NCBI RefSeq assembly: GCF_947331435.1
Contig: NZ_CAMZOF010000005.1
Location: forward strand, 248,001-312,000
Length of the DNA: 64,000 bases
Direction: 5' to 3'
Origin: Pelagibius sp. Alg239-R121
GTDB lineage: Bacteria; Pseudomonadota; Alphaproteobacteria; Kiloniellales; Kiloniellaceae
The notes beneath the pieces are model-generated. The model did not search any database. It saw nothing but the letters and a program-made list of their open reading frames with translations, and was not told the origin of the DNA. The position numbers were made by a program, and so were the translations under genes. Positions 7,306 through 58,159 of this stretch are shown here, in pieces; within the stretch, counting starts at the first letter, position 1, and each line of letters opens with the position of its first letter.

Positions 7306-7419
7306 AGAGTGCGATCGTTTGTCATTAATGTAATCAAGAACATGAAACGCCCTCCATTCATCTTGAGCGGAGTTGCATTCACATTTTTCTCTGATCCAGT
7401 GAAAAACGTTCGGACTCTT
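7306..7419. repeat. Composite intergenic palindromic repeat (A + B units)
   Basis: Unit A (7306-7355) begins AGAGTGCGATCGTT and ends CAAGAACATGAAACGCCCTC, the inverse orientation of the consensus. Unit B (7369-7419) carries ATTCACATTTTTC, then CCAGTGAAAAACGTTCGG and ACTCTT. The gap is 13 bp. It lies upstream of the channel gene and downstream of the hydroquinone reductase gene, both on the minus strand. Same family as copies near 11.3, 26.4, 28.4, 30.3, 46.0 and 51.1 kb. Confidence 0.7.
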
Positions 7420-7490
7420 GCAGTGTAGCTGTGCGGATTGTGTGGACGCCAGAAAGTTATCTGTTATCGAACCGAGGTGGCGACCGACTG

Positions 7491-8474
7491 TTAGACGGTC
7501 AGGGGTTCCCGTCCGTGCTGCGCAAGGAAGTCGATATCGGGCCCCAGGGGAACGACACCGGTTGGATTCACGCTTACGTGGCTGCCGTAGTAGTGATGCT
7601 TGATGTGATGGAAATCCACCGTTCCGGCAACCCCGGGAATTTGAAAAAGTTCACGGGTATGACCCCAGAGATTGGGCAAATCCACCAATCGTTGCCGGTT
7701 GCATTTGAAGTGTCCGAAATAGACGGGATCGAAACGAACCATAGTGGTGAAGAGCCGCCAATCTGCTTCGGTAATTCTATTGCCGGTCAGATAGCGCTGC
7801 TGCGAAAGACGGTCTTCCAGCCAGGACATAGAATCGAAGAGCGCTGCGAACGCCTCTTCGTAAGCTTCCTGAGAGGTCGCAAAACCACATTTGTAGACGC
7901 CGTTATTCACCGTGTGATAGACGCGCTCGTTGACCGCCTCAATCTCCTGCCGCAGATCCTCCGGATAGAAATCAATCGCAGCATCTCCCCAGGCATCAAA
8001 CGCGGTGTTCAGCATTCGGATGATTTCGGACGATTCATTGCTGACGATGGTGCCGGTTTTCTTATCCCATAGAATCGGAACGGTGACCCGTCCACTGTAG
8101 TCGGAGAGGGCTCGTGTGTAGACTTCGTGAAGGTGCTTCGCGCCACCGATTGCATCCGCCGTGCAGCCGCGGCCTTCCTGGAATACCCATCCCTGTTCGC
8201 CCATGTGCCAATGCACGACCGATACGGTGATCACGTCTTCGAGTTTTTTGAGTGCCCGAAAGATCAGGGTCCGATGTGCCCAGGGACAAGCCAGCGAGAC
8301 ATAAAGATGATAGCGGCCTGCTTCCGCTTCGAAACCATCCCTACCGCTCGGCCCCGCCGTGCCATCGGCCGTGACCCAATTGCGGAAGATCGATTCGTTG
8401 CGTTGAAAACGCCCGCCGCTTTTGGCCGTGTCATACCATTGGTCATGCCATACACCGTCTACCAGAAGACCCAT
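7491..8474 (-). CDS. yqjG: Glutathionyl-hydroquinone reductase (Xi-class GST)
   Basis: 327 residues. Reduces glutathionyl-(hydro)quinones with glutathione, releasing the hydroquinone and GSSG. The catalytic Cys is in YVSLACPWAHRT (Cys63), the Xi-class CPWA motif. VPILWDKKTGTIVSNESSEI is the glutathione-binding cis-Pro and SES region; the C-terminal all-helical GST domain holds RYLTGNRITEADWRLFTT and the Tyr-rich FHHIKHHYYGSH end typical of the class. Start with AGAGGAAG nine bases upstream. Not in an operon; the pirin gene upstream is a separate unit with a 94 bp gap. Confidence 0.92.
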   Translation of the reverse strand: MGLLVDGVWHDQWYDTAKSGGRFQRNESIFRNWVTADGTAGPSGRDGFEAEAGRYHLYVSLACPWAHRTLIFRALKKLEDVITVSVVHWHMGEQGWVFQEGRGCTADAIGGAKHLHEVYTRALSDYSGRVTVPILWDKKTGTIVSNESSEIIRMLNTAFDAWGDAAIDFYPEDLRQEIEAVNERVYHTVNNGVYKCGFATSQEAYEEAFAALFDSMSWLEDRLSQQRYLTGNRITEADWRLFTTMVRFDPVYFGHFKCNRQRLVDLPNLWGHTRELFQIPGVAGTVDFHHIKHHYYGSHVSVNPTGVVPLGPDIDFLAQHGREPLTV

Positions 8475-8568
8475 TTCTTGCTTCCTCTTTATGCACGCTT
8501 TTGTCTGCTCGCAAAGCAGATTTTTGGTTAATTGTCAGTCGGATAACGCCAAGGGCCTGCCAATGCCT

Positions 8569-9336
8569 TTAGTTTGCTGGCAGATCAGCCAAGAGAATCT
8601 CCGTGTCCACTACGGCCTCTATATCCACGTGGTCTTCTTGCCGGATCGCTGCCCCGTCGCGCATTTGAACAGGGGTGCCGTTGATGACTGCCTCACCGCT
8701 GGCGGCAACCAGATAGCCTTGACGATTCTGACCAAGGTCGTACCGAAGGCTTTGGCCTTTTGTGAGCGTTGCGCCGAGCAGGGCGGCATCCTGATGGATC
8801 TCGAGTGCGCCTTGGTGCCGGCTGCGTCCGGAAGCAAGCGGCACTAGAATTCCGGCACGATCGGACTTTGGAAAGCGGCTCTGGTCCCATCGAGGTTGAA
8901 GATTGTCGATGGCCGGGCGTATCCAAATCTGAAACAGCGTCGTCTCCTCATCTTCGCGATTGTATTCTGCATGCATGATGCCTTTACCGGCGGTCATGAC
9001 TTGAACGTCACCTGCTTCGGTCCGGCCCTGGTTCCCTAAATGGTCCTGATGCGTGATTGCGCCGCTGCGGACGTAGGTGATGATTTCCATGTCCCGGTGC
9101 CCGTGGAGATCGAATCCGGTGCCCGGTGCAATGGCGTCGTCGTTCCATACGATCAGCGGGCCGACGCCGTTTCTGCTGGGATCGAAGTATGAACCAAAGC
9201 TGAAGTGATGGCGTGCAGTGAGCCAGTCATTTTCAAATCGGCCGAGACGGTTGAATTCGGCAACGTCAATCACGTTCTTCGTTCCCTTCCTGGTGCGCTG
9301 TAATCCGATGTTGAAGCGGGAATTCATGCCCCTCAT
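8569..9336 (-). CDS. Pirin family cupin (quercetinase-like)
   Basis: 255-residue bicupin. Metal ligands in the N-terminal cupin are visible: LHGHRDMEIITYV gives His78 and His80, and GIMHAEYN gives His122 and Glu124, the pirin set. Bacterial members (E. coli YhhW) can oxidise quercetin in vitro, but the physiological role is uncertain. The start ATG at 9336 has GAGG/AGGA upstream; an ATG three codons in has its purine tract too close. It is divergent from a LysR gene, a common arrangement in which the LysR protein controls the pirin gene. Confidence 0.9.
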   Translation of the reverse strand: MRGMNSRFNIGLQRTRKGTKNVIDVAEFNRLGRFENDWLTARHHFSFGSYFDPSRNGVGPLIVWNDDAIAPGTGFDLHGHRDMEIITYVRSGAITHQDHLGNQGRTEAGDVQVMTAGKGIMHAEYNREDEETTLFQIWIRPAIDNLQPRWDQSRFPKSDRAGILVPLASGRSRHQGALEIHQDAALLGATLTKGQSLRYDLGQNRQGYLVAASGEAVINGTPVQMRDGAAIRQEDHVDIEAVVDTEILLADLPAN

Positions 9337-9349
9337 GATCCTGACCTCA

Positions 9350-9367
9350 CATCTCTACGCAGAGATG
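9350..9367. promoter_or_regulatory. Inverted repeat in pirin-lysR gap (LysR operator candidate)
   Basis: CATCTCT-acgc-AGAGATG, perfect 7-bp arms with a 4-bp spacer, in the 95 bp divergent gap, 14 bp upstream of the pirin ATG. LysR-type regulators commonly bind such dyads in divergent promoters, so this is the most likely operator for the neighbouring regulator. Function inferred. Confidence 0.4.
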
Positions 9368-9431
9368 GTGTGTTTCCCAAGGACGCGTTATATGTTCACG
9401 TGGAATTAGTTTGTTTCTCTGAGGAAACGAT

Positions 9432-10352
9432 ATGATCGATGATCTGGCCAGCATGGCCATCTTCGCCCGCGTGATCGAAGCCGGAGGGTTTTCCAAGGCG
9501 GCCCGGGATCTCGGCGTCAGCAAATCGTCGGTTTCCAAACAGGTTAGCCGGCTGGAAGACCGCCTGGGTGTGCGCCTGCTCAACCGGACAACCCGACGTT
9601 TATCACTGACGGAAGCGGGGGCGGCCTTCTACGAAGGATGCCAGCGGGTTCTTACAGAAGCGGAATCGGCCAAAGAGGCTGTGTCTCATCTGGCCTCAGC
9701 GCCGCGCGGTGAGCTTAAGGTCAATGCCCCTATGTCTTTCGGAATTATGCACTTGGGGCCGGCCTTGCCGGAGTTTCTGGAGCGTTTCCCCGAATTGAAT
9801 GTGCAGATGGTTCTGAACGATCGGGTGGTCGATTTGATTGATGAGGGGTTCGATGTCGGCGTACGAATCACCCGCATGCTGGATTCCAGCCTGATCGCGA
9901 GGCGGCTTGCGCCCAATCGTCTTGTTGCCTGCGCTGCGCCATCGTATCTAAAAAAACACGGAACACCGCGCCAACCGGACGATCTGAAGCGGCACAATTG
10001 CCTTGGCTACAGCTACTCCAAGACGCCCGGTACCTGGCACTTTCGAGATGACGCAGGACGCCACAAAGTGAACGTGAGAGGAAGGTTTACAGCCAACAAC
10101 GGTGACGTCATACAGGCTGCATTGCTTGCCGGTTGCGGGATCGCAATTCAGCCCAGCTTCATTGCTGGAGACAGTTTGCGCAGTGGCCGGCTGGTTAGAC
10201 TGTTTGAGCCCTATCAGGTCGGCGATGAATCCTCTGTCCATGCCGTGTTTCCGGCCAACCGCAACCTCTCGCCCAAAGTGCGGGTTTTTGTCGATTTTCT
10301 GGTCGAACGATTCGGTGATGCCCCCTATTGGGATGCAGGCATTTGGGAGTGA
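9432..10352 (+). CDS. LysR-type transcriptional regulator (CrgA/DhcR-like)
   Basis: 306 residues. The N-terminal winged helix has the LysR signature (AIFARVIEAGGFSKAARDLGVSKSSVSKQVSRLE, about 6-40), then the linker helix and a periplasmic-binding-like effector domain (LKVNAPMSFGIMHLGPALPEFL onward). The DLGVSKSSVSKQV recognition helix and the ARRLAPNRLVACAAPSYL block are typical of the CrgA/YafC-like subgroup. Start with GAGGAAACG upstream. Divergent to pirin, its probable target. The stop overlaps the start of the downstream transporter gene. Confidence 0.9.
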   Translation: MIDDLASMAIFARVIEAGGFSKAARDLGVSKSSVSKQVSRLEDRLGVRLLNRTTRRLSLTEAGAAFYEGCQRVLTEAESAKEAVSHLASAPRGELKVNAPMSFGIMHLGPALPEFLERFPELNVQMVLNDRVVDLIDEGFDVGVRITRMLDSSLIARRLAPNRLVACAAPSYLKKHGTPRQPDDLKRHNCLGYSYSKTPGTWHFRDDAGRHKVNVRGRFTANNGDVIQAALLAGCGIAIQPSFIAGDSLRSGRLVRLFEPYQVGDESSVHAVFPANRNLSPKVRVFVDFLVERFGDAPYWDAGIWE

Positions 10353-11239
10353 AGCTTGACAGGTCATTGCTGCCCGGCTTTGCGGTGGCGACATCAGCGG
10401 TGCTTTGGGGCCTTTGGTGGATCCCGTTGCGTTGGCTTGATGACCACGGCCTAAGGGGGGACTGGGCCAGTTTTATGATTTTCGGTCTTGCGTCGCTGAC
10501 GCTCGGGCCGTTCGTCTGGCGTCGGCGCGGGCTCTCCGATCAGATTTTACCACTCCTGGCGATAGGCGTTCCCCTCGGCGTCACCATGGTGCTGTGGAAT
10601 CATGCCGTCATCAACGGCAACGTCATCCGCGTGGTTCTGCTGTTCTACCTTTCGCCGGTATGGGCCAGTTTCATGGGACGGTTCATGTTAGGAGCGCCGA
10701 TCCCTTTGACACGATGGATTGCGATCGCGCTGGGATTGGCCGGGGCCGCTGTCATCCTACAACTCGACCTCTTAGCATCCGATACTGTGTCTGCAGCTTA
10801 TTCTCTCGCCGATGTTATGGCGCTCCTCTCGGGTGTCTGTTTTGCCCTCGCGGCGACCACAACCCGGATGCACGGTTCGGTGCGGGAGCTTGATAAGACC
10901 TTTGTGTCTGTCTTCGTGGCTGCGGGCGCCGCGCTGCTCTTTGTTGTTTTAACCGACACACCGCCGCCTTCGAAGGATGTTGGATCACTGGTGGCGGTGG
11001 CTTTGGCTGTTGCACTGATTTTTCTGCTGCCGACCACAGCTCTGCTGCTCTGGGGGGCTGCGCTGCTGGATCCGGGCCGCGTTGCAATCCTGCTGTTGCT
11101 AGAGGTCGTTGCTGCGGCACTTAGTTCGTCTTTGCTCGCCTCGGAACCTCTTGGCTTACGAGAATTGCTTGGGTGTGCACTGATTCTATGTGCGGGATTG
11201 ATGGAAGCGGTGCCTGCGTTCCGGCCTACCCAGGCCTGA
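10349..11239 (+). CDS. EamA/DMT family permease
   Basis: Drug/metabolite-type exporter with about ten hydrophobic segments in two EamA halves (ATSAVLWGLWWIPLRWL near the N-terminus; GVCFALAATTTRM opening the second half; GLRELLGCALILCAGLMEAVP at the end). Substrate unknown. I place the start at the GTG (10349) that overlaps the lysR stop as GTGA, though the GGGAG before it is very close; an in-frame ATG at 10328 would add seven residues (MGCRHLG). Translational coupling with the LysR gene suggests the regulator and transporter are one unit. Confidence 0.85.
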   Translation: MKLDRSLLPGFAVATSAVLWGLWWIPLRWLDDHGLRGDWASFMIFGLASLTLGPFVWRRRGLSDQILPLLAIGVPLGVTMVLWNHAVINGNVIRVVLLFYLSPVWASFMGRFMLGAPIPLTRWIAIALGLAGAAVILQLDLLASDTVSAAYSLADVMALLSGVCFALAATTTRMHGSVRELDKTFVSVFVAAGAALLFVVLTDTPPPSKDVGSLVAVALAVALIFLLPTTALLLWGAALLDPGRVAILLLLEVVAAALSSSLLASEPLGLRELLGCALILCAGLMEAVPAFRPTQA

Positions 11240-11250
11240 ATACGGCATTT

Positions 11251-11361
11251 CAGATGCTTCGACCTTTTTAAGGGTTTTAGTGCAAATCGTGTTTCGGACA
11301 CTCTTCCAATTAGCTGGAGTGCGATCGTTCCCGACTGTTTTCGTCAAGGACATCACACACT
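11251..11361. repeat. Composite intergenic palindromic repeat (B + A units)
   Basis: Unit B (11251-11306) is degenerate, with ACCTTTTTAAGG and GTGCAAATCGTGTTTCGG. Unit A (11315-11361) reads GGAGTGCGATCGTTC then GACTG-TTTTCGTCAAGG. It lies in the 411 bp gap between the EamA gene (ending 11239) and the GNAT gene (starting 11651). I see nothing else supportable in that gap. Confidence 0.55.
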
Positions 11362-11650
11362 GGATGCGGGCCGAATCCTCGAAATTGCCTGGATCAAAGC
11401 GCTTGGACTTTTTTGCGAGGTGTGATAATCGAGAAATGAGAGCGAAAACTAAGGTTTGATTTAGATGTCCCTTAGCGGAAAATTGCGACGACGATGCCGA
11501 CGCCAGTGCGCTTTGCGCACAGGGCGCCGTTCTGTCGCGATTCTGCGCTAATTCCTGCGATTTAGAGCCGGAAAGCAACGAAAGACAGCGGTCCCAAACG
11601 AACGACTTTCGTTGATCAACCGCCGCTGGCGGTCAGAGGGATGCAGACAA

Positions 11651-12214
11651 ATGACCTTCGAGACTTTCTCAAACGCTTCATCGCAAATTCCTTTTAAAAT
11701 TTCTCCGCAACCGGGATATGCGGAACCTATGATCGAGGATCTGCTGGACCGGACCTTCGGATCCGAGCGGCAGGAAAAGACGGTCTATCGTCTCCGTGAG
11801 GGCTTGCCGGCCGTTGAAGGCCTGTCTTTTATCGCCGAAGGCGGCCAAGGAGAGCTCATCGCTTCGTTGCGTTTCTGGGCGGTGTCGATTTCCGGAGAAC
11901 CTGCAATTCTACTTGGCCCCTTGGCTGTCGAACCACGATATCAGGGCCAAGGCATGGGGCGGGCTTTGGTGGCTTGGGGGCTTAAAGCGGCGAAACAGCA
12001 GGGCCATCGGTTGTGCCTGGTCGTGGGTGAACCTGCATATTATGCGCCTTATGGTTTCATACCGGCATGTCCCAACGGCCTGATTCTGCCTGGGCCTGTC
12101 GATCCGGAGAGATTTCAGGTGCTGGAGCTGGTCGCTGGGGCCATCGAAGGGATTCGGGGCGTGATTGAGCGGGCACCGGAAATCGAACCTTCAGCCAGTT
12201 CGGATGTCGCTTAA
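11651..12214 (+). CDS. GNAT-family N-acetyltransferase
   Basis: 187 residues with the acetyl-CoA pyrophosphate loop in LLGPLAVEPRYQGQGMGRAL (Q-x-x-G-x-G type) and a following helix (VAWGLKAAKQQGHR). It resembles the YhbS-like group: the GEPAYYAPYGFIPA block is typical. Acyl acceptor unknown. The start ATG at 11651 has AGAGGGA twelve bases upstream; an in-frame extension to 11612 lacks such a site. Convergent with the long membrane-protein operon, stop codons 15 bp apart. Confidence 0.85.
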   Translation: MTFETFSNASSQIPFKISPQPGYAEPMIEDLLDRTFGSERQEKTVYRLREGLPAVEGLSFIAEGGQGELIASLRFWAVSISGEPAILLGPLAVEPRYQGQGMGRALVAWGLKAAKQQGHRLCLVVGEPAYYAPYGFIPACPNGLILPGPVDPERFQVLELVAGAIEGIRGVIERAPEIEPSASSDVA

Positions 12215-12229
12215 CCGAATCTACGGGTC

Positions 12230-17088: not shown

Positions 17089-17089
17089 A

Positions 17090-19075: not shown

Positions 19076-19096
19076 CAGGCTTCAGGACGGCAGGTT

Positions 19097-26331: not shown

Positions 26332-26350
26332 GTGCCTGTGTGCAGAAGAT

Positions 26351-26466
26351 CAGAAGCTGTCCGTGTTTCACTGAACTATTGTAGATCTCGATGCACCCTC
26401 TGTTCCATATTGTTGGAGGCTGATTCCCGTTCGTGATCGCTTCCGCTAAAACCAATCTCGCTATCG
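26351..26466. repeat. Degenerate composite intergenic palindromic repeat (B + A)
   Basis: Unit B (26351-26402) has GTGTTTCACTGAA and ACCCTCTG; unit A (about 26415-26466) has GGCTGATTCCCGTTCGTGA and AATCTCGCTAT. It fills the space between the pet terminator and the ychF stop at 26468. More diverged from the consensus than the 51.1 kb copy. Confidence 0.45.
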
Positions 26467-26467
26467 G

Positions 26468-28350: not shown

Positions 28351-28365
28351 GGGGTCCTTCGCTTT

Positions 28366-28461
28366 GGAGTCTGATCACATTTGGCTGAATCAGACTCCAT
28401 TTTGGTGTGTTAGAGAGCGGTCCACATTCTTGACGGCTTCAATCAAGAACGATCGCACTCT
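28366..28461. repeat. Composite intergenic palindromic repeat between rplY and pth
   Basis: Short unit B (28366-28398): perfect 10-bp arms GGAGTCTGAT / ATCAGACTCC around a 13-base loop. Unit A (28412-28461): AGAGAGCGG... with the perfect stem TTCTTGA / TCAAGAA around nine bases, ending CGATCGCACTCT. The spacing is 13 bp. It lies between rplY (ending 28496) and pth (starting 28350), both on the minus strand, so it is probably transcribed and folds in the mRNA. Confidence 0.75.
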
Positions 28462-28495
28462 GATTTGACGAGATTCCCAAAGAGATCGCGAGGCA

Positions 28496-30236: not shown

Positions 30237-30312
30237 TCCAGTTTCCCCGGCTCTGTGCGGCAATAAAGTCCATTGCCGGACGTCTCGGCCTTCTCTACTT
30301 GGTCCCGCCCAC

Positions 30313-30424
30313 TAGAGGCTGATTGTTTTTCTTCATAGCAAAGACAAACGTTAAGCAGCCTCTAATCTACATCTCAGAGGCGATCCACGATCTTGACTGC
30401 TTCAGCCAGGATTGATCGCGCTCT
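30313..30424. repeat. Composite intergenic palindromic repeat upstream of prs
   Basis: Unit B (30313-30364) has perfect 9-bp ends TAGAGGCTG / CAGCCTCTA, 52 bp in all. Unit A (30376-30424) reads AGAGGCGATCCACGATCTTGA and ends TTGATCGCGCTCT. The gap is 11 bp. They sit in the 430 bp space between prs (start 30236) and the lipoprotein gene (end 30667). The remainder of the space (30425-30666) shows no gene or RNA that I can support. Confidence 0.7.
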
Positions 30425-30666
30425 AAAGCCCCGCGCGAGCGACCCGGCTTTTCGGTTCTTTCGAGCCAAATCAAGTCGCCCCGACCGGATCAGATCCGCT
30501 TCCGCCGCCCAGCCCTGAGACGAGCGGAACTTATCAACGTGCCCCCGCTCTGTAAACGGCCTTCGCGTCGCTTAATTGCAATAAAGTTTGAATAAAAAAA
30601 TGGTTTGGTTAACGAAGCATTGCAGGGGGCGTTAAATTCCCCACCTGAAGTGGCCAAAAGAGCGTT

Positions 30667-41221: not shown

Positions 41222-41552
41222 CATTGCCTAATCTCCAAATACTTCGAAGTCGCGGCTGGTTCTCGTGCGAGCTGTGAAGCCGCCGCAGCGAGCTCTGCCG
41301 TTATCAAGGGCCGCAGCGCTCCGCCGGCTTCTCTTTAGTTTTCACTCCAGCTTCTACTGCTCGCTTCGCAGCAACTTGTCGTGCGCGCCGCTGTGGTGTT
41401 AGCGTCGCATCCCGGTCCGAATGGGGATCGGAGGGTGATCGTTCTTGACCGGAAAGGATGGGGCGAGTCGTTTTCTCTATCACTTTAAATTAAAGACTGG
41501 TGCCGGCTTTCTCTGGCCCAAAAAAATTGATCAAATTTTGGGAGATTTAGCG
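41222..41552. other. Gap between phaP terminator and csaA
   Basis: 331 bp. It holds one half of repeat unit A at about 41433-41453 (AGGGTGATCGTTCTTGACCGG). An open frame from 41445 joins csaA but contains no family residues, so I read it as untranslated leader. No RNA gene or promoter is clear. Confidence 0.4.
41433..41453. repeat. Half copy of repeat unit A
   Basis: AGGGTGATCGTTCTTGACCGG matches the outer and inner left arm of unit A; the matching right arm is not recognisable. A likely decayed or truncated copy, about 100 bp upstream of the csaA start. Confidence 0.35.
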
Positions 41553-42720: not shown

Positions 42721-43169
42721 AACAGTTGCGCCAACAATTCCGTTATACCAGTAGTTACGAGCGCTCCTTGGGTCGGCACATTGCGGGCTTGGCGGTTCGT
42801 CTACTGAATACAGGGAAGACGCAGCAGCTTATGCCTAACTAGCGCGCGTGCAGCATTGCGATTTGCGCAGCTGCACAAAAGCCAAGTGAGTTGAAGCGAC
42901 CGCGATACCGGCGCTTCGCGACTCCCACATCGAGATATACTATTCCTTGAGCGTAAATCGTACTTCGCCTTCCTGAAGGAGCGGTCGATTCACGCTCTTG
43001 GTCGTTTCATCCAAGTGTCGTCGTGCTCGTTTCCATAAGCTTATGGGACTCTTCGGTGCATCAGGTACAGCGCACAATGGACGAGATTGGTTACGTGGTT
43101 CGGATGACATGAAACGCCCCGTCATGGCATTATCGCTGGTGGATTTGACCATGTTGGAGCAGGTCGAGG
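42721..43169. other. Gap between mucR and the 43170 gene
   Basis: 449 bp with a repeat A unit at 42979-43029 and a possible degenerate B unit (about 42917-42970, GCGTAAATCGTACTTCGCC). I see no coding sequence, tRNA or terminator that I can defend. Confidence 0.4.
42979..43029. repeat. Repeat unit A
   Basis: GAGCGGTCGATTCACGCTCTTGG... with GTCGTTTCATCCAAG, then CGTCGTGCTCG: the same two-arm layout as the other unit A copies. Moderately diverged. It lies 141 bp upstream of the 43170 gene. Confidence 0.55.
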
Positions 43170-45929: not shown

Positions 45930-46048
45930 TACTCTGCAGTTTGATCGATATTCACTGAATCGGCAAAAAAAGTGAATCAGCCTTTTCCTTGTAGAGTTAG
46001 AGGGCGCTTCACGTTCTTGACTGGTTTCGCCGGGAACATGCGCGTCAC
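45930..46048. repeat. Composite intergenic palindromic repeat (B + A), marR-RR gap
   Basis: Unit B (45930-45988) with inner inverted repeat TTCACT / AGTGAA and CAGCCTTTTCC; unit A (45999-46048) reads AGAGGGCGCTTCACGTTCTTGA and then CTGGTTTCGCC with a diverged right arm. The gap is 10 bp. It lies between the response-regulator start (45782) and the MarR stop (46075), so it separates the two genes. Confidence 0.65.
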
Positions 46049-46074
46049 AATAGCTCCTGCCGACTTGAGGCAGC

Positions 46075-47772: not shown

Positions 47773-47802
47773 CGGCGCTCCATTCGGGGCGCCGTTCTAT
47801 TT
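47773..47802. terminator. Possible bidirectional terminator between ilvE and moaE
   Basis: Stem CGGCGC / GCGCCG around a ten-base loop, followed by TTCTATTT. It lies 83 bp past the ilvE stop and 19 bp before the moaE stop, between convergent genes. The T tract is interrupted, so efficiency is uncertain. Confidence 0.5.
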
Positions 47803-47820
47803 AGAGATAAATGCGGCAGC

Positions 47821-48270: not shown

Positions 48271-48294
48271 GAGCCTATCCTCTGATCATCGGTG

Positions 48295-48546
48295 TTATCC
48301 GCCGGTTACGGGCGGAAACAATGCGACTTCATCGCCGGGAGCCACCGGATCGGTGAAGTCGGCGTATTCCTGGTTCACTGCGATACGCAAGGCATCGATG
48401 TCCGCAAGCGCGTCCTCGTAGCCTGGGCCGCGTTGCTTAAGCCAGACCAGCAGTTCGGCGACAGTTTTGACCTCGGAGGGTGGTGACACCGTCTCCTCCG
48501 AGACCCCTGTTTTGGTTTTGAGCCACGCGAAATACAGCAGTTTCAT
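48295..48546 (-). CDS. moaD: Molybdopterin synthase sulfur carrier subunit MoaD
   Basis: 83 residues, ubiquitin-like beta-grasp (MKLLYFAWLKTKTG, VAELLVWLKQRGPGYEDAL). The C-terminal VTGG is the site that carries the thiocarboxylate; two Gly and no tail confirm it. It overlaps moeA by 4 bp (ATGA), so coupled. Confidence 0.94.
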   Translation of the reverse strand: MKLLYFAWLKTKTGVSEETVSPPSEVKTVAELLVWLKQRGPGYEDALADIDALRIAVNQEYADFTDPVAPGDEVALFPPVTGG

Positions 48547-49799: not shown

Positions 49800-49833
49800 G
49801 GAGCCTCTGCCTCAATTCCCTGCTGTCATGATT

Positions 49834-49878
49834 TAGAGTTCCATCGTTCTTGACGTGTCAAAGATACTTTAACCCTTT
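49834..49878. repeat. Degenerate repeat unit A
   Basis: TAGAGTTCCATCGTTCTTGACGTG then TCAAAGATACTTTAACCCTT: the left arm and centre match unit A; the right arm is diverged. It lies between moeA (start 49799) and mobB (end 49952). Confidence 0.45.
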
Positions 49879-49951
49879 GATATGGAACAGCTTACTGACA
49901 GATTGCCAATTCTTCGGGTCCGTCGGTTCCACCTGCTTCCATATATGATGG

Positions 49952-50461
49952 CTATGCATCGGGCAGGCTGCAATGCGAGATGATGAAATCGGCAATTGCT
50001 TTGACGTCGTTCAGATGCAGCTGCGGCAGATCGATCCCCTCCACTTTTTCGTCGCTGGCGATCGCGACGACGTGTGGATCCTCCGTGCAAAGCAACGGCT
50101 TGCCGACGGAGGGGCGGTGGACTTCGAGTTTTGGGTGCGGCGCTTTTTTGAAGCCTTCGATCAGCAGCAGATCGACGGGCGACATCTTACCGACCAGATC
50201 CGCGACGGTTGGTTCCGGGGCCTCTCGCAGCTCATGCATCAGAGCCCAGCGCTTGCCGGACGAGATCAACACCTCGTTGGCGCCAGCCTGGCGGTGTTCA
50301 TAAGAGTCCTTGCCCGGTTTATCCACGTCGAAATTGTGATGTGCGTGCTTGATGGTCGAAACCGTCAATCCACGTGACACCAGCTCAGGGATAACTTGGC
50401 AGACCAGCGTGGTTTTCCCGCTGCCGCTCCAACCGGCGAGCCCAAAGACTTTCATGGCCAT
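49952..50461 (-). CDS. mobB: Molybdopterin-guanine dinucleotide biosynthesis protein MobB
   Basis: 169 residues. P-loop GLAGWSGSGKTTLVCQVI; the family motifs TVSTIKHAHHNFDVDKPGKDSYEHRQAGA and LLLIEGFKKAPHPKLEVHR are present. Assists MobA in adding GMP to molybdopterin. Four bases downstream of pgsA, so in the pgsA operon. Confidence 0.94.
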   Translation of the reverse strand: MAMKVFGLAGWSGSGKTTLVCQVIPELVSRGLTVSTIKHAHHNFDVDKPGKDSYEHRQAGANEVLISSGKRWALMHELREAPEPTVADLVGKMSPVDLLLIEGFKKAPHPKLEVHRPSVGKPLLCTEDPHVVAIASDEKVEGIDLPQLHLNDVKAIADFIISHCSLPDA

Positions 50462-50465
50462 ACCG

Positions 50466-51035
50466 CTACGCCCCGGGACGGCTGTCCAGCATATGCTTCA
50501 AGCCGCTGGCCATGTAGTCGTAGCCGGTCACCACGGTCAGAGCCCCGGCGATCCACAGTCCCCACTCACCGGCACTCTGCACCGGCCAGGAGGCTGGCCC
50601 GGCATCACCGACGATCAAGGTGCCCAGCGCGATCATCTGGATGACAGTTTTCCATTTTGCGAGCTTGCTGACGGGCATCGCCACCTTGATTTCCGCGAGG
50701 TACTCGCGCAGGCCCGATACAAGGAGCTCACGGCAGAGAATGATAATCGCTGGAATGACCACAAGGTCTTCAATGCGGCCAACTGCCGTCAGCATGATAA
50801 TAACCGATGCAATCAGCAGCTTGTCGGCAATGGGATCAAGAAATCGACCAAGTGAGGATTCATCGTTCATGTTGCGCGCCAGATAGCCGTCAAGCCAATC
50901 AGTTGCGCAGGCCAGTGTGAAGATACCCCAGGCAAGCCAACGATTTGTCGGCGTGTCGACGTACATCAGACCGATCATCACAGGAATCAAAACGATGCGC
51001 GATAGTGTCAGAAGATTGGGCAGCGTTGTTAACAT
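50466..51035 (-). CDS. pgsA: CDP-diacylglycerol-glycerol-3-phosphate phosphatidyltransferase
   Basis: 189 residues, integral membrane. The CDP-alcohol motif is complete: DGYLAR-x8-G-RFL-D-PIA-D (DWLDGYLARNMN, GRFLDPIADKLL). Makes phosphatidylglycerophosphate, the first committed step to PG and cardiolipin. It precedes mobB by 4 bp and follows uvrC over 232 bp (with a repeat composite). Confidence 0.95.
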   Translation of the reverse strand: MLTTLPNLLTLSRIVLIPVMIGLMYVDTPTNRWLAWGIFTLACATDWLDGYLARNMNDESSLGRFLDPIADKLLIASVIIMLTAVGRIEDLVVIPAIIILCRELLVSGLREYLAEIKVAMPVSKLAKWKTVIQMIALGTLIVGDAGPASWPVQSAGEWGLWIAGALTVVTGYDYMASGLKHMLDSRPGA

Positions 51036-51054
51036 CGACGTCGTGCGATCCTGC

Positions 51055-51170
51055 TAGAGCCTGAACGATTTTCACTGGATTCGGTGAAAAACGTGAATCA
51101 GTCTCTTCATCATATAGTGAGAGCGCGATTCACGTTCTTGACTGCTTCAGTCAATTACGACCGCACTCTT
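51055..51170. repeat. Composite intergenic palindromic repeat (B + A), best-preserved copy
   Basis: Unit B (51055-51107): TAGAGCCTGAACG, inner stem TTTTCAC / GTGAAAA around 8 bases, then CGTGAATCAGTCTCTT. Unit A (51119-51170): GAGAGCGCGATTCACGTTCTTGACTG, loop CTT, CAGTCAA, ending CCGCACTCTT (inner stem TTGACTG / CAGTCAA). Gap 11 bp. It lies between pgsA (start 51035) and uvrC (end 51268); I use it as the type copy. Confidence 0.8.
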
Positions 51171-51267
51171 GTGTCGGGTGTCCTGTCCTGGGATTACCCG
51201 ACCCCAACTCACCGATTAGGCGAATTGCGCCTAAGCTAAACTCCTTCAGCCTGAGACTAAAGGGCAA

Positions 51268-53466: not shown

Positions 53467-53696
53467 CGCTTAGCCATATCAGGGATTGTCGAAGTCATAT
53501 GTCGGCGCATCACACATCCAAATTCACAATCGCCCGTTATGAGTGTTGCCGCCGTAGTATCGCCTGCCAGGCCCTTCGAAGAAAGGTAGCGGATGCATAA
53601 ATGGCTGCCCAAATTGCTCCTCCGACAATAGTGACATAGATGTGACAGAAATGTGGAACCAGCCACGCGGGTACTCATTGGCGGGTTTTTTACGCC

Positions 53697-54020
53697 TTAA
53701 ATTGTCGTTAACCAACATATCCACGGAATCTGTGGATAACTCTGTGCGTATATGAAGGTTGCGATGCCTTAGCCCTAGAGGAATCAAGCCCTTGCTTGGT
53801 ATGCCTAAAAAATAGGCAAAAAAATATAACTTATTGAAATTTATAAACAAAAACTAAGTCAAGTGTAAAGAAACCTTAACGAAAGAAAAATCGACATTGA
53901 CTCCGTTCGGTTTAAAAGAGGCCTCGGAAGGGTTGTGCAAAACTTTCACCTTCCGACATGATAGATTACGTTTTCGCAAGGGTTTATGGCCCACTATTGA
54001 GTCTTTACGATGACGTTAAC
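53697..54020. promoter_or_regulatory. CtrA/DnaA-box AT-rich region upstream of uvrC (origin-like)
   Basis: Within the gap between folB (end 54087) and uvrC (start 53466): a perfect CtrA box TTAA-N7-TTAAC (53697-53712), near-perfect GTAA-N7-TTAAC (53865-53880) and TTAC-N7-TTAAC (54005-54020); a facing DnaA-box pair TATCCAC-N7-GTGGATA (53718-53738); hairpins CAAGC/GCTTG (53785-53798) and TGCCTA/TAGGCA (53802-53818); an AT-rich run to 53863; GANTC sites at 53726, 53781, 53899 and 53999. The layout resembles Caulobacter Cori, but no hemE-type neighbour is present, so an origin is a hypothesis; uvrC regulation by CtrA is the alternative. Confidence 0.5.
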
Positions 54021-54086
54021 GAATTGTGACATTGATGTTTCGCTTCGTCGTGTCGAGTCCTGTCCACGACGCCGTATCGGCCACGA

Positions 54087-54506
54087 TTAGCTTTTACGCC
54101 GCCGCTCGATTTCAATGCCGATTCCGCCGACATCTGGATAGCGATCAAGCTTTTCAATGCGAACGCGCGTGGCAGATACACGCTCGTCGAAGAAACAGGC
54201 TTCGATGACCTGGTCTGCCAGTGTTTCCAGAAGGCGGACGTTGCTGTCCAAACAGGTGCGGCGGATTCGCGTAACCAGATGTCCGTAATGAACCACTTCG
54301 GAAATCTCGTCGTCGTCCGGTGCCGAGGGCTGAATCTCGATTTCAAGATTGAGACGCAGGCGTTGACTGCGTGCGCGCTCCTCGTCGGTCAATCCGATCC
54401 AGCAGGTGAGAGTCATGTCGCGGACCACGATCCGTTGCGACGTCAGCGCGGTTTGAGCGAGCATGGAGTCTTCGGGTTTCGACTCAACGCGCGTAGATGC
54501 CGACAT
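54087..54506 (-). CDS. folB: Dihydroneopterin aldolase
   Basis: 139 residues. IVVRDMTLTCWIGLTDEERARSQRLRLNLEIE is the N-terminal signature, VVHYGHLVTRIRRTC and RVRIEKLDRYPDVGGIGIEIERR the C-terminal one (catalytic Lys in IEKLDR). Splits dihydroneopterin in folate synthesis. It lies 23 bp downstream of the FolM-like gene on the same strand. Confidence 0.93.
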   Translation of the reverse strand: MSASTRVESKPEDSMLAQTALTSQRIVVRDMTLTCWIGLTDEERARSQRLRLNLEIEIQPSAPDDDEISEVVHYGHLVTRIRRTCLDSNVRLLETLADQVIEACFFDERVSATRVRIEKLDRYPDVGGIGIEIERRRKS

Positions 54507-54529
54507 GGCGATTCCTTTGGTTACAGTTA

Positions 54530-55354
54530 TTAATCCAAAAATTTATGATCTTTGGCCGGCTGCGCCCAACCAAGGTGTTCGCCGCCATCCAGTGCAATCA
54601 TCTGACCTGTCATCGACTTTGCTGCCAGCAAAAACCGTGCGGCAGAGCATATTTCTTCTGGCGATGTCCCGATTCCAAGAGGAAGGGTCAAACACTGTGC
54701 CTTGAAATCGACATCGCTCTGCCTGGCATTGGGCAGGGCCGGGCCGGGTCCGATACCATTAACACGGATCCTGGGTGCCAGCTCAAGCGCGAGTGCTTTT
54801 GTGAGTGCCCACAGGCCGGCTTTGGAGAGAGAGTAACTCAGATAGTGCGGCGTCTCATTCCAGACCCGCTGATCGATCATGTTGATGACAACTCCGCCCA
54901 AAGGTTCCGGATCGTGCCCGTTTCGCGTCACCTCGGTTGCAAGTGCTTGCGCGAAGCTCTGTATGAGAACCAGCGGGGCACGAAGGTTGGGTTCGACATG
55001 CTGGTCCCAGCTTTGTCTTGAGGCTGTCTCGATGGAATCCAATTCGAAGGTCGAGGCGTTGTTAATCAGGCATCCCAGCGGACCGATTTGCTCGACCGCA
55101 TTCGGAATCAGGTCCTGCACCGCTGGCTCGTCCGCCAAGTCGGCCTGAATGGCCACCGCTCTGCCGCCGTTCGCTGTAATCTCCTCGACCAGTGCCTTAG
55201 CTTCCGCATCCGAGGTGTTGTAGTGCGCGGCGACAGCCCAGCCCTGGGCGGCAAAATCCAATGCAAGCGCACGTCCTATGCGCTTTGCCGCACCGGTTAT
55301 CAGCACGGCGCGCGGATAGCTGGTGGAATGGCTTAAGGCTTTCTGTTCATTCAT
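54530..55354 (-). CDS. Short-chain reductase, FolM (pteridine reductase)-like
   Basis: 274 residues. SDR fold: TGAAKRIGRALALDF (NADPH loop), INNASTFE, the catalytic SYSLSKAGLWALTKALA (Tyr/Lys), and GIGPGPALPN. The KRIGRALA loop and the adjacent folB gene suggest a FolM-type dihydromonapterin or dihydrofolate reductase. The start at 55354 (MNEQKALSHS) suits the family; an open frame continues 12 codons upstream. Could be another NADPH-dependent SDR. Confidence 0.75.
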   Translation of the reverse strand: MNEQKALSHSTSYPRAVLITGAAKRIGRALALDFAAQGWAVAAHYNTSDAEAKALVEEITANGGRAVAIQADLADEPAVQDLIPNAVEQIGPLGCLINNASTFELDSIETASRQSWDQHVEPNLRAPLVLIQSFAQALATEVTRNGHDPEPLGGVVINMIDQRVWNETPHYLSYSLSKAGLWALTKALALELAPRIRVNGIGPGPALPNARQSDVDFKAQCLTLPLGIGTSPEEICSAARFLLAAKSMTGQMIALDGGEHLGWAQPAKDHKFLD

Positions 55355-55538
55355 CGGCGCGAGCATGCAGAAGAGGGCGCGTAATGACAAGTTCCGCCGC
55401 GACGCAAATTATAGGGTCTGCGTCGAAAAGCGACCGGACTCTGATTTGGCGGGTTACAGGGCAATTTTCGCTCTTGCCAGTTGCAGTCAAAATTGGTGGC
55501 GCACTGGCCGCCAGAACAGGCACAACGGGGCATTGCGG

Positions 55539-56531
55539 TTAGACTGCAGCCGGAACCACGCCGAACTGATAAGTAATGTAGAGACCATAGAGCAGCAAAA
55601 AGATCAGACCGGAACGGCGGCCAATCTGACCCCGGAACATGATCAGCGGAACGACCATTAAGGAGACTGCCGCCATGATCCAGACATCGAAGCCGAGAAC
55701 GGCCGCATCGACATGAAACGGCGTCACCATCGCCAGCACACCCAGGATCAGTAGAATGTTGAAGAGGTTCGATCCCAGCGCATTGCCGAGGGCGACTTCT
55801 GTGTGCCCGCGTATGGCTGCGGTGATGGAGGTTGCGAGCTCAGGCAGTGAAGTTCCGAAGGCCACCAGGGTCAGGCCTATAACCGTTTCTGAGACGCCAG
55901 CTGCGCGGGCGATCTGCACCGCGCCCCGAACCAGTAGTTCGGACCCCAAAACCAGGCCTGTGATGCCACCGAGCACAAGCAAGACCGCGACCATCACCGA
56001 TTTCGGCGCACTCTCGATTTCTTCTGTAACCTCTTCGTCCAGCCCGGCCAGGACGTCCTCTGGCGCATCGCTTCCGTTTCTGGAGGCATCAGTACGGTAG
56101 CTGTACCAGACATAGCCGATAAGAACGGCAATCATGACAACGCCGTGTAAAAAAGACAGTTCGCCATAATAGGCGAAGCCCACGAACATCGCGGTCGCTG
56201 CGAGGACAGCAAGGCAGTCCCGCAACACCAGTTTTGGTTTGGTGGCGATCGGCGAGATGATGGCCGCCACACCCAGAATCAAAAGGATGTTGGCGATATT
56301 GGATCCGACCACGTTGCCGACGCCGATATCTGTAACGTCTTCCAGGCCGGCGGTTATTGTCACCACAAGTTCAGGCATAGACGTCGCAAAAGCCACAACC
56401 GTCAGGCCGATCAGCATGGGCGACAGGCCGAGGTTGTTGGCCACGCCGATGGCGCCGCGCAGCAGAACCTCACCGCCAAATGCAAGGAGCAGCAGTCCGG
56501 CGCCGGTCATCATAAAGGCTAATGGCGTCAC
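55539..56531 (-). CDS. Calcium/sodium antiporter (CaCA, YrbG type)
   Basis: 330 residues with about ten membrane helices in two CaCA repeats: GLTVVAFATSMPELVVTITAG and GLTLVAFGTSLPELATSITAA are the alpha-1 and alpha-2 repeats with their conserved Glu. Exchanges Ca2+ for Na+ or H+. Substrate is inferred from the family. Monocistronic; followed by a 148 bp gap to the FolM-like gene. Confidence 0.92.
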   Translation of the reverse strand: MTPLAFMMTGAGLLLLAFGGEVLLRGAIGVANNLGLSPMLIGLTVVAFATSMPELVVTITAGLEDVTDIGVGNVVGSNIANILLILGVAAIISPIATKPKLVLRDCLAVLAATAMFVGFAYYGELSFLHGVVMIAVLIGYVWYSYRTDASRNGSDAPEDVLAGLDEEVTEEIESAPKSVMVAVLLVLGGITGLVLGSELLVRGAVQIARAAGVSETVIGLTLVAFGTSLPELATSITAAIRGHTEVALGNALGSNLFNILLILGVLAMVTPFHVDAAVLGFDVWIMAAVSLMVVPLIMFRGQIGRRSGLIFLLLYGLYITYQFGVVPAAV

Positions 56532-56858
56532 AGTGGCTAAACCCTTTTCCGGCGCATGATCTTGGGGCGGGCGGGAACGTACGACCCGCCGGATAGGGCT
56601 GTGATGGCAAAAAACATGTCAACCAATCTGTTGTGCGCGGCACGGACCGCCTTCGCGCTCTTAAGGGTGTTCCTTATCGAGGTGCATAATCAGGTCGATG
56701 GTGGAATGGATAGGTAAATGCGTCTTCCCCCCGGAATTTTCAATATTTATCGGATTTCTGCAGTATTGGTAACCCCTGCTATGCGAATTCACGCTCACCC
56801 TCCTACTTCATCTCGCGCGCAGTGCTCGAAACGTTCGACTTGAGCCGTCGAGGGTTTC
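56532..56858. other. Gap between antiporter start and msrB
   Basis: 327 bp. No repeat copies, tRNA, terminator or defensible open reading frame seen; the antiporter promoter is presumably within 56540-56700. Confidence 0.35.
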
Positions 56859-57275
56859 TCAGGCGTTATCATCTCCGCCATCGCCGGGTTTCAGGTTCAG
56901 CGATGCCGAGTTCATGCAGTAGCGCAAACCTGTGGGAGCGGGGCCATCTTCAAAAACATGTCCGAGGTGGGCATCGCAGCGCGCGCAGAGGACCTCGGTC
57001 CGCTTCATCCAGAGCTTGCGGTCAACCTTCGTTGCAACGGCTTCCTCTGAAACGGGTGCCCAGAACGACGGCCATCCAGTTCCGGAATCATATTTTTCAC
57101 CTGATCGGAAAAGCGGTGTGTCGCAGCAGATGCAGGCATAGGTGCCCGGGTTTTTGTTATCATGATACAAGTTTTGAAAAGGACGTTCTGTACCCGCTTG
57201 TCGGGTCACGTGATACTGTTCGGAGCTCAACTGAGCACGCCATTCAGCATCTGTCTTTTCGATCTTTTCGCTCAT
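56859..57275 (-). CDS. msrB: Peptide methionine-R-sulfoxide reductase MsrB
   Basis: 138 residues. Repairs methionine-R-sulfoxide in proteins. Zn ligands ACICCD (Cys48, Cys51) and LCARCD (Cys97, Cys100); catalytic Cys120 in [21 protein letters not shown] completes the signature. No signal peptide, so cytoplasmic. A near-perfect palindrome lies 75-107 bp upstream. Confidence 0.95.
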
Positions 57276-57349
57276 CCGCTAATTCTCCCTCATTTCAAGA
57301 ATGCCATCGCTCGCGCCCAACGCGTTTCTCCACTCCATTCTCAACCAAA

Positions 57350-57382
57350 CTCTATATATAGACTTGAAGCCTATATACAGAG
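57350..57382. promoter_or_regulatory. Inverted repeat upstream of msrB
   Basis: CTCTATATATAG-acttgaagc-CTATATACAGAG: 12-bp arms with one mismatch; the left arm contains the perfect palindrome TCTATATATAGA (57351-57362). A plausible operator for oxidative-stress control of msrB. The rest of the gap to 57749 is AT-rich, with a possible CtrA-like GTAA-N7-TTAAC at 57504-57519 before the next plus-strand gene. Confidence 0.4.
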
Positions 57383-57749
57383 GCGAACCAATTCCTGTAC
57401 CTGCGTCACTAAATCCGATGGCTTTGCAGCCATTAATTTGTCACTCTTTCTCGTGAACTGTCATGCACAGAATCTGTTTTGGCTTAAAAGAAACGCGTTC
57501 CGCGTAAGTCTTTCTTAACGCTGATATTTGTCAGGAAACAAAACATTTGCATATGTAAAAAATATATTCCCTGACACAAAAAATTGAAGAACCAACAGCG
57601 AGTTTTTATACATCACGTTTGCGTTATTTATTGATGTTGCTAAAGCATTAACCATATCTAAAGCAAGACGGGAGAGGTCCTGTAGTCAACTGATTACCCG
57701 ACGTGCCGGTGCAAAGAAAGGATCCGGCAAGGTCGAGGTGGAGGATGCA

Positions 57750-58085
57750 ATGTCGAATTTTGTTGAAGCGATGAAGAAGATTTCGATGCCGGGGGCTTTC
57801 GCGATGATGCTCGTCTCCGGTGCCGTCGCAGCAACGCCGGCATCCGCGCAGGCCGTCTCCTGTGGAGAGCGTCAAGCCATCCTGGATAGCTTGAAAGACC
57901 GCTACCACGAGGGTCGCACTGCTTACGGAATCACTGCCGACGGTCGCTTGCTTGAAGTGTTTTCCGGGCCTTCCGGCTCTTGGACCTTGCTGATGACGCA
58001 GCCAGGCGGCAAGAGCTGTCTGATGTCGAGTGGTGAAGGTTGGCGGCATATTCTCGAAATGAAGCCTCAGGATCCCGTCGCCTGA
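57750..58085 (+). CDS. Small exported protein, unknown function
   Basis: 111 residues with a signal peptide (FAMMLVSGAVAATPASAQA, cleavage about residue 35). The mature part (VSCGERQAILDSLKDRYHEGRTAYGITADGRLLEVF and SGSWTLLMTQPGGKSCLMSSGEGW) has two cysteines. I recognise no family. The start ATG at 57750 is set by GGTGGAGG five bases upstream; an ATG at 57738 adds four residues. It is convergent with the PAS kinase; repeat A lies between the stops. Confidence 0.75.
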   Translation: MSNFVEAMKKISMPGAFAMMLVSGAVAATPASAQAVSCGERQAILDSLKDRYHEGRTAYGITADGRLLEVFSGPSGSWTLLMTQPGGKSCLMSSGEGWRHILEMKPQDPVA

Positions 58086-58110
58086 TCGCGGTGTCCCGGT
58101 TTAGAGTGTG

Positions 58111-58159
58111 AGGGCGATTCCCGTTCTTGACGCTATTTCGTCAAGAACGATCGCGCCCT
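58111..58159. repeat. Repeat unit A between convergent genes, overlapping a stop codon
   Basis: AGGGCGATTCCCGTTCTTGACG-ctattt-CGTCAAGAACGATCGCGCCCT: a perfect 11-bp stem CGTTCTTGACG / CGTCAAGAACG (58122-58149) with 6-bp outer arms. It ends inside the TAG stop of the PAS kinase (58158-58160) and starts 25 bp after the exported-protein stop. As a hairpin between convergent genes it may serve as a terminator or mRNA-end stabiliser. Confidence 0.75.

Follow-up and report, generated by a model that had tools for sequence, protein, structure and literature searches.

A two-hairpin intergenic repeat of Pelagibius sp. Alg239-R121 as a probable non-autonomous, IS630-related mobile element with the layout of CIR, RIME and Bru-RS repeats

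The dispersed palindromic repeats found in a 64,000-nucleotide stretch of the Pelagibius sp. Alg239-R121 genome (hereafter the window) are very probably non-autonomous IS630 (Tc1/mariner-like) MITEs with folded-back ends, the whole composite being the mobile unit. A sequence-only reading of the same DNA had left their kind unnamed; they are repeats of the CIR, RIME and Bru-RS kind. CIR are reportedly the Caulobacter CcrM-associated intergenic repeats of Chen and Shapiro (2003), and RIME are said to be the Rhizobium-specific intergenic mosaic elements of Osteras (1995). The present analysis finds IS630-like ends and a single target slot for a repeat with this layout, in a host that is placed with Denitrobaculum (Kiloniellaceae).

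The full repeat measures about 117 bp, in the order CTAG-hairpin B-linker-hairpin A-CTAG. A covariance model (R2), trained on 27 copies from the host genome, holds 41 pairs with 86.9% of cells paired, and both-sided changes occur at 21 pairs compared with 11.1 ± 2.2 in shuffles (0 of 500 shuffles reaching the observed number). Paired changes keep the hairpins conserved, and the predicted folds are strong. By reading, unit B aligns without gaps to the reverse complement of unit A, so that the composite is one imperfect palindrome in two inverted copies. At 117 bp and in high copy number, the element has no transposase gene of its own.

The sequence-only reading had counted about eleven loci in the window, in agreement with the ten that R2 finds at E<0.01 and an eleventh at E=0.036; the best window match (E=1.1e-25) stands far above chance expectation. 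The best-preserved composite, B followed by A, adjoins uvrC (51054-51171, forward strand, 112.7 bits) and has CTAG at its left end and CTTG at its right. Its hairpin B (51056-51106, forward) consists of an IS630-end-like outer arm and an inverted copy of that arm, as indicated by structure, paired changes and comparison of the arm with IS630 ends, and carries GAATC, a GANTC (CcrM-type) site, in an asymmetric internal loop (51095-51099, forward). Hairpin A (51119-51170, forward) is built in the same way from a second IS630-end-like arm, judging by structure and the arm comparison, with GATTC, again a GANTC site, in its internal loop (51127-51131, forward). Further composites lie at 30312-30426 (forward, 76.1 bits, ends CTAG...CTAA), at 28364-28463 (forward, 69.6 bits), where B is shortened and the copy lies downstream of a ribosomal L25/TL5 gene, at 7304-7420 (reverse, 63.0 bits), adjoining a mechanosensitive channel gene, and at 45934-46051 (forward, 58.5 bits), with a decayed right end. 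The copy at 58068-58161 (forward, 41.2 bits) is mostly unit A (58101-58161). More degenerate are the composites at 3922-4029 (reverse, 33.4 bits, E=2e-6), 26350-26464 (forward, 26.8 bits) and 11251-11363 (forward, 22.3 bits) and the copy at 42929-43031 (forward, 25.1 bits), mostly unit A; the copy at 55411-55507 (forward, 15.9 bits, E=0.036) is highly degenerate and borderline. By reading, five loci (51054, 30312, 28364 with its shortened B, 7304 and 45934) clearly carry both units, and the seven proposed earlier are approached once the degenerate composites at 3922 and 26350 are counted; the proposed span of 7306-58159 leaves out the copy at 3922-4029. Two weak A-like arms are unsupported: that at 41430 reaches only E=0.62 with R2 (41458-41541), and that at 49835 has no R2 match up to E=1.

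Rather than only a few copies, the 8.02-Mb host genome holds at least 149 R2 matches (150 candidates scored). The placement between genes that had been proposed is broadly true. Mean coverage by ORFs of at least 120 aa is 0.22 at 39 loci of the genome against 0.91 at shifted control positions, and 18 of the 39 loci lie wholly outside such ORFs compared with 15 of 312 controls; eight of the 39 are more than 50% covered, the ORFs being mechanical calls. Instead of the two-base overlap with a stop codon described earlier, unit A at 58101-58161 shares four bases with the terminal part of the ORF of a histidine kinase (58158-59726).

Comparison with sister species points to mobility. While R2 finds ten loci in the window, it finds one, at an identical site, in each of the syntenic 60-kb stretches of three congeners (G001, G002 and G003), and at three sites the lineage without the element has, in its place, exactly one slot of four bases. 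In all three congeners CTCG stands in place of the CTAG-element-CTTG at 51054 of the window; at 30312, where the window ends are CTAG...CTAA, the empty slot is ATAG in two congeners and ATTT in one; conversely, the window has an empty site, TCAG (19082-19085), at the position orthologous to the element common to the three congeners. Single 4-base slots are what a C|TA|G target predicts. The slot letters have drifted, with TA intact only at 30312, so that the duplicated letters are not literally identical, and duplication of a 2-bp TA or of a 4-bp CTAG predicts the same sequences, the two being indistinguishable here. In addition, the flanks of 11251-11363 are nearly contiguous in the congeners; the flanks of 28364-28463 were located in their syntenic stretch, where R2 has no match for this copy, and it has none in the congeners for 45934-46051. 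The element has also been amplified recently in a relative, G025, whose complete genome holds at least 18 full-length copies at 95-100% identity (40 of 53 candidates scored), nine of ten fetched copies being exactly CTAG...CTAG. Taken together, the genome-wide copies, the lineage-specific insertions with single-slot empty sites, the transposon-like ends and this amplification support the earlier suggestion of a composite, non-autonomous mobile element, whose copies are not all orthologous and whose hairpins are preserved by paired changes.

Both outer arms share TAGAGC with the terminal inverted repeats of ISRm2011-2-type IS630 elements. The ISs had been picked, by pattern or by result, because they have TAGAGC ends, so that the test is confined to positions 7-28; with TAGAGC left out, the remaining 22 letters were compared by permutation. 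Between 23 element copies, including one (G361) that is one base out of register, and 13 IS630 end pairs, 8.77-9.26 of 22 letters agree against 5.5 ± 0.7-0.8 expected (a level reached by none of 300 permutations in any of the four comparisons). With near-duplicates and the G361 row removed, 19 copies give 8.81-9.33 against about 5.5 ± 0.6-0.8 (0 of 1000 in each of the four), and 8.61-8.99 against the six plasmid ISs alone (0 of 1000 each time). End 1 scores 9.24 and 8.81 against left and right IS ends and end 2 scores 9.15 and 9.33; these values are nearly equal and do not tell a left from a right IS origin. Rhizobial element ends taken alone gave no significant agreement with 14 IS ends (p 0.40 and 0.25).

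As for the IS elements themselves, eight of 30 IS630-hit loci have a suitably spaced TAGAGY pair, against one of 20 control window chunks; seven of these eight, representing six different ISs of which one is in the congener G001, have CTAGAGC at both ends, and the remaining locus (L188) is without it. When any TA-started inverted pair was searched for in 10 plasmid IS630s, TAGAGC ends ranked first in six, including S. meliloti ISRm2011-2; such a pair was absent in three and weak in one. The congener G001 has one IS630 of about 1.1 kb whose CTAGAGC ends match those of the element. In G025, one IS630 has CTAGAGC ends in three of three copies; a second has ends of this type in four fetched copies, save for TAAAGC at one end of one copy, and some of its copies have a different letter outside TA. 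The element ends of G025 are closer to the IS630 ends of other genomes than to those of its own two groups. In the host genome, scoring of 43 of 98 candidate stretches gave no complete IS630 with matching ends, the best NF033545 match being a 36-bit fragment; there is an apparent IS630 remnant beginning CTAGAGC. G002 has 54 element matches, in which the two strands of one copy may count twice, and no IS630 match, and IS630 is above cut-off in eight of 16 carriers and six of 25 non-carriers, a weak association. Old MITEs do not strictly require that their genome still holds an intact partner IS.

These findings allow us to propose a model in which the outer ends would be degenerate terminal inverted repeats of ISRm2011-2-type IS630, with an inverted copy following each end; each end, followed by its own inverted copy, would then fold into a hairpin. 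A putative IS630 transposase acting in trans would recognise the outer ends, excise the element and insert it at TA, preferably within CTAG, by the cut-and-paste route suggested by the IS630 literature. The TA would be duplicated, giving C-TA-[GAG...CTC]-TA-G, with a presumed duplication of exactly 2 bp. In this regard, insertion at TA with duplication of TA is described for IS630 elements in the part of PMC2170065 available to us. An IS630 origin would account for the constant two-hairpin layout and the TAGAG/CTCTA ends, for the four bases common to tandem junctions and for the use of the repeats by CTAG-targeting ISs.

A host-selected RNA or DNA signal (an attenuator, mRNA stabiliser, small RNA, or nucleoid or CcrM/GcrA site) that is not mobile would draw on the paired changes, the strong folds and the location between genes. 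Template switching in palindromes can yield paired changes, however, and could be their source here. Neighbouring genes at the 39 loci are tandem in 23 cases, divergent in 11 and convergent in five (mechanical ORFs), so that placement is not terminator-like. Inward from the outer end, G-T outnumbers A-C by 64 to 39, an unexplained asymmetry in favour of such a signal; for the composite's top strand the counts are 47 and 56, with no sign of constraint on one transcript strand. GANTC is frequent in the loops: an internal loop carries it in 20 of 27 copies for hairpin B and 19 of 27 for hairpin A and, by reading, in 13 of 19 and 17 of 19, respectively, in other genomes, where the copies were found by R2 and are hence biased. 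A role for CcrM was speculated on by the authors of CIR, as reported in the part of PMC2229807 seen. Since the copies are lineage-specific in sister species, we regard a purely host-selected signal as very improbable, although the element may have secondary host effects.

Spread of REP/BIME-like palindromes by a RAYT (Y1 tyrosine transposase) is highly improbable. In its favour, the intergenic palindromes of the element are imperfect, keep a bulge and stand in inverted pairs, and the host carries two Y1_Tnp genes. However, no copy lies within 1.5 kb of these two genes; in G025, with its 18 or more near-identical copies, Y1_Tnp is absent at E<=0.001, and among 16 carriers 10 have Y1 genes, as do 13 of 25 non-carriers. 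Moreover, the consensus has, by reading, no GTAG tag, and the target slot is TA/CTAG-like; the REP-like label of the sequence-only reading is not supported in its RAYT sense. Mobilization by another CTAG-targeting IS is barely credible: in G025 an IS481-like element (named from a reading of its ORF) adjoins a composite at its CTAG end and another IS group likewise has CTAG at its ends, but by eye their ends, TGTGGAGCC... and CTAGCTGTTCAG..., are unlike those of the element, and both seem to exploit CTAG sites in the way that IS711 exploits Bru-RS in the portion of PMC2266754 seen.

IS630 MITEs with folded-back ends thus remain the preferred reading. The GANTC sites suggest a tentative extension of it. 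A CcrM site is present in the left end of 13 of 13 alphaproteobacterial IS630 elements read here, beside the transposase gene, and in the right end of none of the 13, and GANTC is often retained in the MITE hairpin loops while the surrounding stems change. It is conceivable, if doubtful, that CIR, RIME, Bru-RS and the present family form one superfamily of IS630 MITEs with two folded-back ends in which GANTC acts as a cell-cycle switch. If so, CcrM methylation would confine the use of the ends, or the expression of the transposase, to the moment after replication, in parallel with the gating of IS10 by Dam after replication. The recurring sites make the old speculation on a CcrM role testable.

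Among known systems, ISRm2011-2-type IS630 elements share with the element TAGAGC ends, further letters over about 28 bp and CTAG at most insertion sites read; they differ from it in their length of about 1.05 kb, their own transposase and, by reading, ends that are not folded back. REP/BIME are likewise intergenic inverted pairs of imperfect palindromes, whereas the present element has no GTAG tag, no link to RAYT and a TA/CTAG-like target. The rhizobial two-palindrome elements L286, which may be RIME1 itself, and L287 are matched end to end by R2 at 56 bits; R2 had no match at the other two of four rhizobial loci (L288 and L289). L286 and L287 share the CTAGAGC end, the two hairpins and the location between genes, but differ in stem sequences, and hairpin 1 of L286, by reading, has no GANTC. 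RUP of Streptococcus pneumoniae, a proposed IS630-Spn1 MITE of 107 bp, is intergenic with IS630-like ends and a TA target, but belongs to another phylum, and its description in the excerpt available does not include two folded-back ends joined by a linker. Bru-RS1 and Bru-RS2 of Brucella, palindromic repeats of 103-106 bp that are reported to be insertion hot spots of IS711 (PMC2266754, seen in part), an IS with the target YTAR, are likened to the element by description only; Bru-RS were published in 1994 and RIME in 1995, according to the reference lists consulted. CIR of Caulobacter and Brucella, as described in the portion of a review available to us (PMC2229807), resemble the element in their length of about 110 bp, two inverted-repeat arms with a linker, TA termini, GANTC and intergenic alphaproteobacterial location; GANTC lies at or in their terminal loop, and mainly in an asymmetric internal loop here. 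That portion lists no TIR for CIR and states that more information is needed on their mobility, whereas the present element shows both IS630-like ends and a single target slot. The similarity of both arms to IS630 ends offers a concrete, testable account of how these long-known alphaproteobacterial repeats move.

The element is an abundant family in its host. With the copy at 51051-51171 as query, 43 matches were obtained in the host genome, 29 of them covering 90 or more of its 121 bases (counted by hand), and 27 of these copies were aligned, with a mean column identity of 77% and the consensus CTAGAGTCTGATCGTTTTTCACTGAATCAGTGAAAAACGTGAATCAGCCTCT-linker-GTTAGAGGGCGATTCACGTTCTTGATTGnTTCAATCAAGAACGATCGCACTCTAG. 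The covariance model built from this alignment matches ten loci in the window at E<0.01 and an eleventh at E=0.036, while no Rfam family scored above its gathering threshold there. Across the host genome it finds at least 149 matches (best 150 of 2934 candidates scored), so the palindromes that the sequence-only reading had noticed in the window are numerous beyond it; three of the 149 are, by reading, the opposite strand of a place already listed, because the element closely resembles its own reverse complement. In scans of more than 40 genomes, run with stricter filters and with the best 90 candidates per genome among 41 relatives and the best nine in a class-wide set, so that the counts are lower bounds in which the two strands of one copy may both appear, matches at E<=1e-4 were present, patchily, in at least 16 of the 41 relatives (host included), and matches were present in at least 28 of 387 genomes sampled from the class (at least 24 of 263 genera). 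As the model was made from host copies, those found elsewhere lean to the host consensus, GANTC columns included; in copies of other genomes the stems differ and the ends and loops are similar.

Our alignment bears out the conserved secondary structure expected by the sequence-only reading. The two-hairpin structure pairs 86.9% of the alignment cells, a value that drops to 32-47% when the partners are slid out of register, and 21 of its 41 pairs have changed on both sides, as compared with 11.1±2.2 in shuffled alignments (0/500). Unit B aligns without gaps to the reverse complement of unit A, so that the composite consists of an imperfect palindrome present twice, in inverted orientation. In both palindromes the internal loop is asymmetric: the outer arm contributes a single C and the inner arm the four bases GTGA. 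The element ends in TAGAG...CTCTA; the left TA is preceded by C in 18/27 copies, and the right TA is followed by G in 21/27. Two host loci depart from this arrangement: L168 (G000:C2:328771-329341) holds five composites in head-to-tail tandem at 114-base spacing, with four bases common to each junction, and the composite at L026 (G000:C1:1244320) has two B-type units in place of B plus A.

Mean ORF coverage at the loci is 0.22, as against 0.91 in controls, and at 39 fetched loci, classed with mechanically called ORFs, the neighbouring genes are in tandem in 23 cases, divergent in 11 and convergent in five. The RNA-strand test gave no sign of constraint on one transcript strand in the top strand of the composite (G-T 47, A-C 56); read from each outer end inward, the sums are G-T 64 and A-C 39.

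Evidence for mobility comes from the congeners. UvrC comparison places Denitrobaculum tricleocarpae (84%) and an uncultured Kiloniellaceae genome (85%) nearest among the named relatives; their genomes show match coordinates identical to those of the congeners G001 and G003, both listed as the same genus. In the 60 kb syntenic to the window, each of the three congeners has one model match, at the same site in all, and the window has ten. The empty sites looked for in close relatives were found: at 51054, where the window reads cctg-CTAG...CTTG-tgtcggg, all three congeners have CTCG in the slot; at 30312 (CTAG...CTAA) the slot is ATAG in two congeners and ATTT in one; and where the three congeners share their element, the window has TCAG. 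All three sites are consistent with each empty site having a single slot, C|TA|G-like but drifted. At 11251, 28364, 45934 and 58101 both flanks were located in congeners and no model match lies there, the flanks being too diverged for a letter-level reading; for 7304 both flanks could be placed in G003 only, and for 3922 and 42929 they could not both be placed. At 26350 and 55411 the distance between the congener flanks exceeds the element-free expectation by about 50-70 bases. A different-stem copy in an Inquilinus MAG (L118:4926-5042) lies about 95 bases after uvrC, near the place of a window copy, and closer relatives are empty there.

The complete genome G025, from another family of the order, carries at least 18 copies that are about 140 bp long and 95-100% identical (best 40 of 53 candidates scored), with exact CTAG...CTAG in 9 of 10 fetched composites. 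It also holds at least nine single-hairpin derivatives at 94-97% identity, eight of them independent, because two belong to a 2.5-kb stretch that recurs, 99.9% identical, towards each end of the genome's single contig (L172 and L178) and is probably an untrimmed circular overlap. One end of these nine copies has the extra inner-arm bases and all share one junction, which weakens the idea that those bases disable a transposon end. A 26-base perfect palindrome at L253 (G025:C1:2474575-2474600) consists of just one element end, TAGAGCAGGATCG, and an inverted second one, preceded by C and followed by G, and is perhaps a minimal derivative. The flanks of the G025 copies are too little conserved in its genus for empty-site comparison, and the G025 element had no match in the plasmid collection.

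What moves the element has several candidate answers. Mobilisation by a REP-associated Y1 transposase (RAYT), an association raised by the sequence-only reading, was tested and rejected. If G025 held an autonomous transposon bounded by the longer ends of the element itself (TAGAGYNNGATCG), a facing pair of these ends would be expected; among the listed matches we read no such pair outside the elements at a separation of 0.5-3 kb. In G025 an IS does lie between a composite and a hairpin, but it is an IS481-like insertion at CTAG; this IS, of about 1.05 kb, sits at CTAG in three places (L170, G025:C1:3973500-3978500; L214; L215), in one of them at the terminal CTAG of a composite, indicating that the repeats can act as IS landing sites.

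The likeliest working explanation is that an IS630-type transposase moves the composite. Such an enzyme would recognise the outer ends and transfer the composite by cut-and-paste into the TA within CTAG; we infer both its identity and its action in trans. In this regard, IS630 elements target TA (PMC2170065), and the RUP element of pneumococcus is a precedent for IS630 mobilisation (PMC3049150, PMC2229807). In G025 itself, one IS630 has CTAGAGC at both termini in all three fetched copies, and a second (four fetched copies) has CTAGAGC ends with small departures, one copy having TAAAGC at one end and some copies a different base outside the TA. Suitably spaced TAGAGY pairs occur in 8 of 30 IS630-hit loci and in 1 of 20 control window chunks; in seven of the eight (six different IS, one of them from congener G001) both ends read CTAGAGC, L188 being the exception. 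When plasmid IS630s were searched for any TA-started inverted pair, TAGAGC ends ranked first in six of ten (S. meliloti ISRm2011-2, R. leguminosarum, S. fredii, Martelella, B. barranii and Dinoroseobacter); the pair is weak in Piscirickettsia and absent in three. In the host, where 43 of 98 candidate stretches were scored, only IS630 fragments were found, one apparently with a CTAGAGC start.

The likeness extends inward from the shared TAGAGC, which was left out of the comparison (positions 7-28, 22 letters). Between 23 copies and 13 IS630 end pairs, end 1 agrees at 9.12 positions with left and 8.77 with right IS ends, and end 2 at 9.05 and 9.26, the null being 5.5±0.7-0.8 (0/300); this set includes a row from genome G361 one base out of register and near-identical copies in four genome pairs. 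With these removed (19 copies), the values in the same order are 9.24, 8.81, 9.15 and 9.33 for all 13 IS, 8.68, 8.77, 8.61 and 8.99 for the six plasmid IS, and 9.73, 8.84, 9.62 and 9.62 for the seven genomic IS, with 0/1000 in all twelve comparisons. As left-right differences are small, we claim no clean left-end and right-end origin for the two hairpins. At positions 22-28 the host consensus arms read TGAATC and TGAAGCA, like the left and the right end, respectively, of the IS in G001; for TGAAGCA the likeness depends on a G that is the commonest letter at its position but occurs in 10/27 copies. An earlier 24-base end test (4,000 permutations) gave best-of-14 p values of 0.002 for each host end, 0.01-0.08 for six ends of two other genomes, and non-significant values of 0.40 and 0.25 for the two rhizobial ends.

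The CcrM site GANTC lies at the internal loop of B in 20/27 and of A in 19/27 host copies, with 2.4 sites per element overall as compared with 3.64 per kb in the window, an enrichment that does not represent independent events because the copies are related; at least one of the 27, L018, has none. In 19 copies from 19 other genomes, read by eye and biased by their retrieval with the host model, it occurs in the first hairpin loop in 13 and in the second in 17, and no copy lacks it in both. IS630 left (transposase-side) ends have GANTC at positions 22-29 in 13/13 cases and right ends in 0/13 (L191-L194, L196, L213, L247, L293-L296, L299 and L301). We hypothesize that methylation at GANTC could gate transposition. 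In 15/27 host copies (counted by hand), though not in G025, the left end reads GAGTC, which places a GANTC site directly next to the point where the cut is expected.

Published families offer several parallels. Bru-RS (PMC2266754, PMC10800456) are palindromic repeats of 103-106 bp reported as IS711 hot spots. Among four rhizobial loci, our model aligns with two over their full length (L286 and L287, 56 bits), and L288 and L289 are unmatched. In the part of the open-access literature that was covered, we found no paper tying RIME, CIR or Bru-RS to IS630, and PMC2229807 leaves the mobility mechanism of CIR unresolved. By description, CIR (PMC2229807) has the same layout as our element: about 110 bp, two arms with a linker, TA termini, GANTC sites and a location outside genes.
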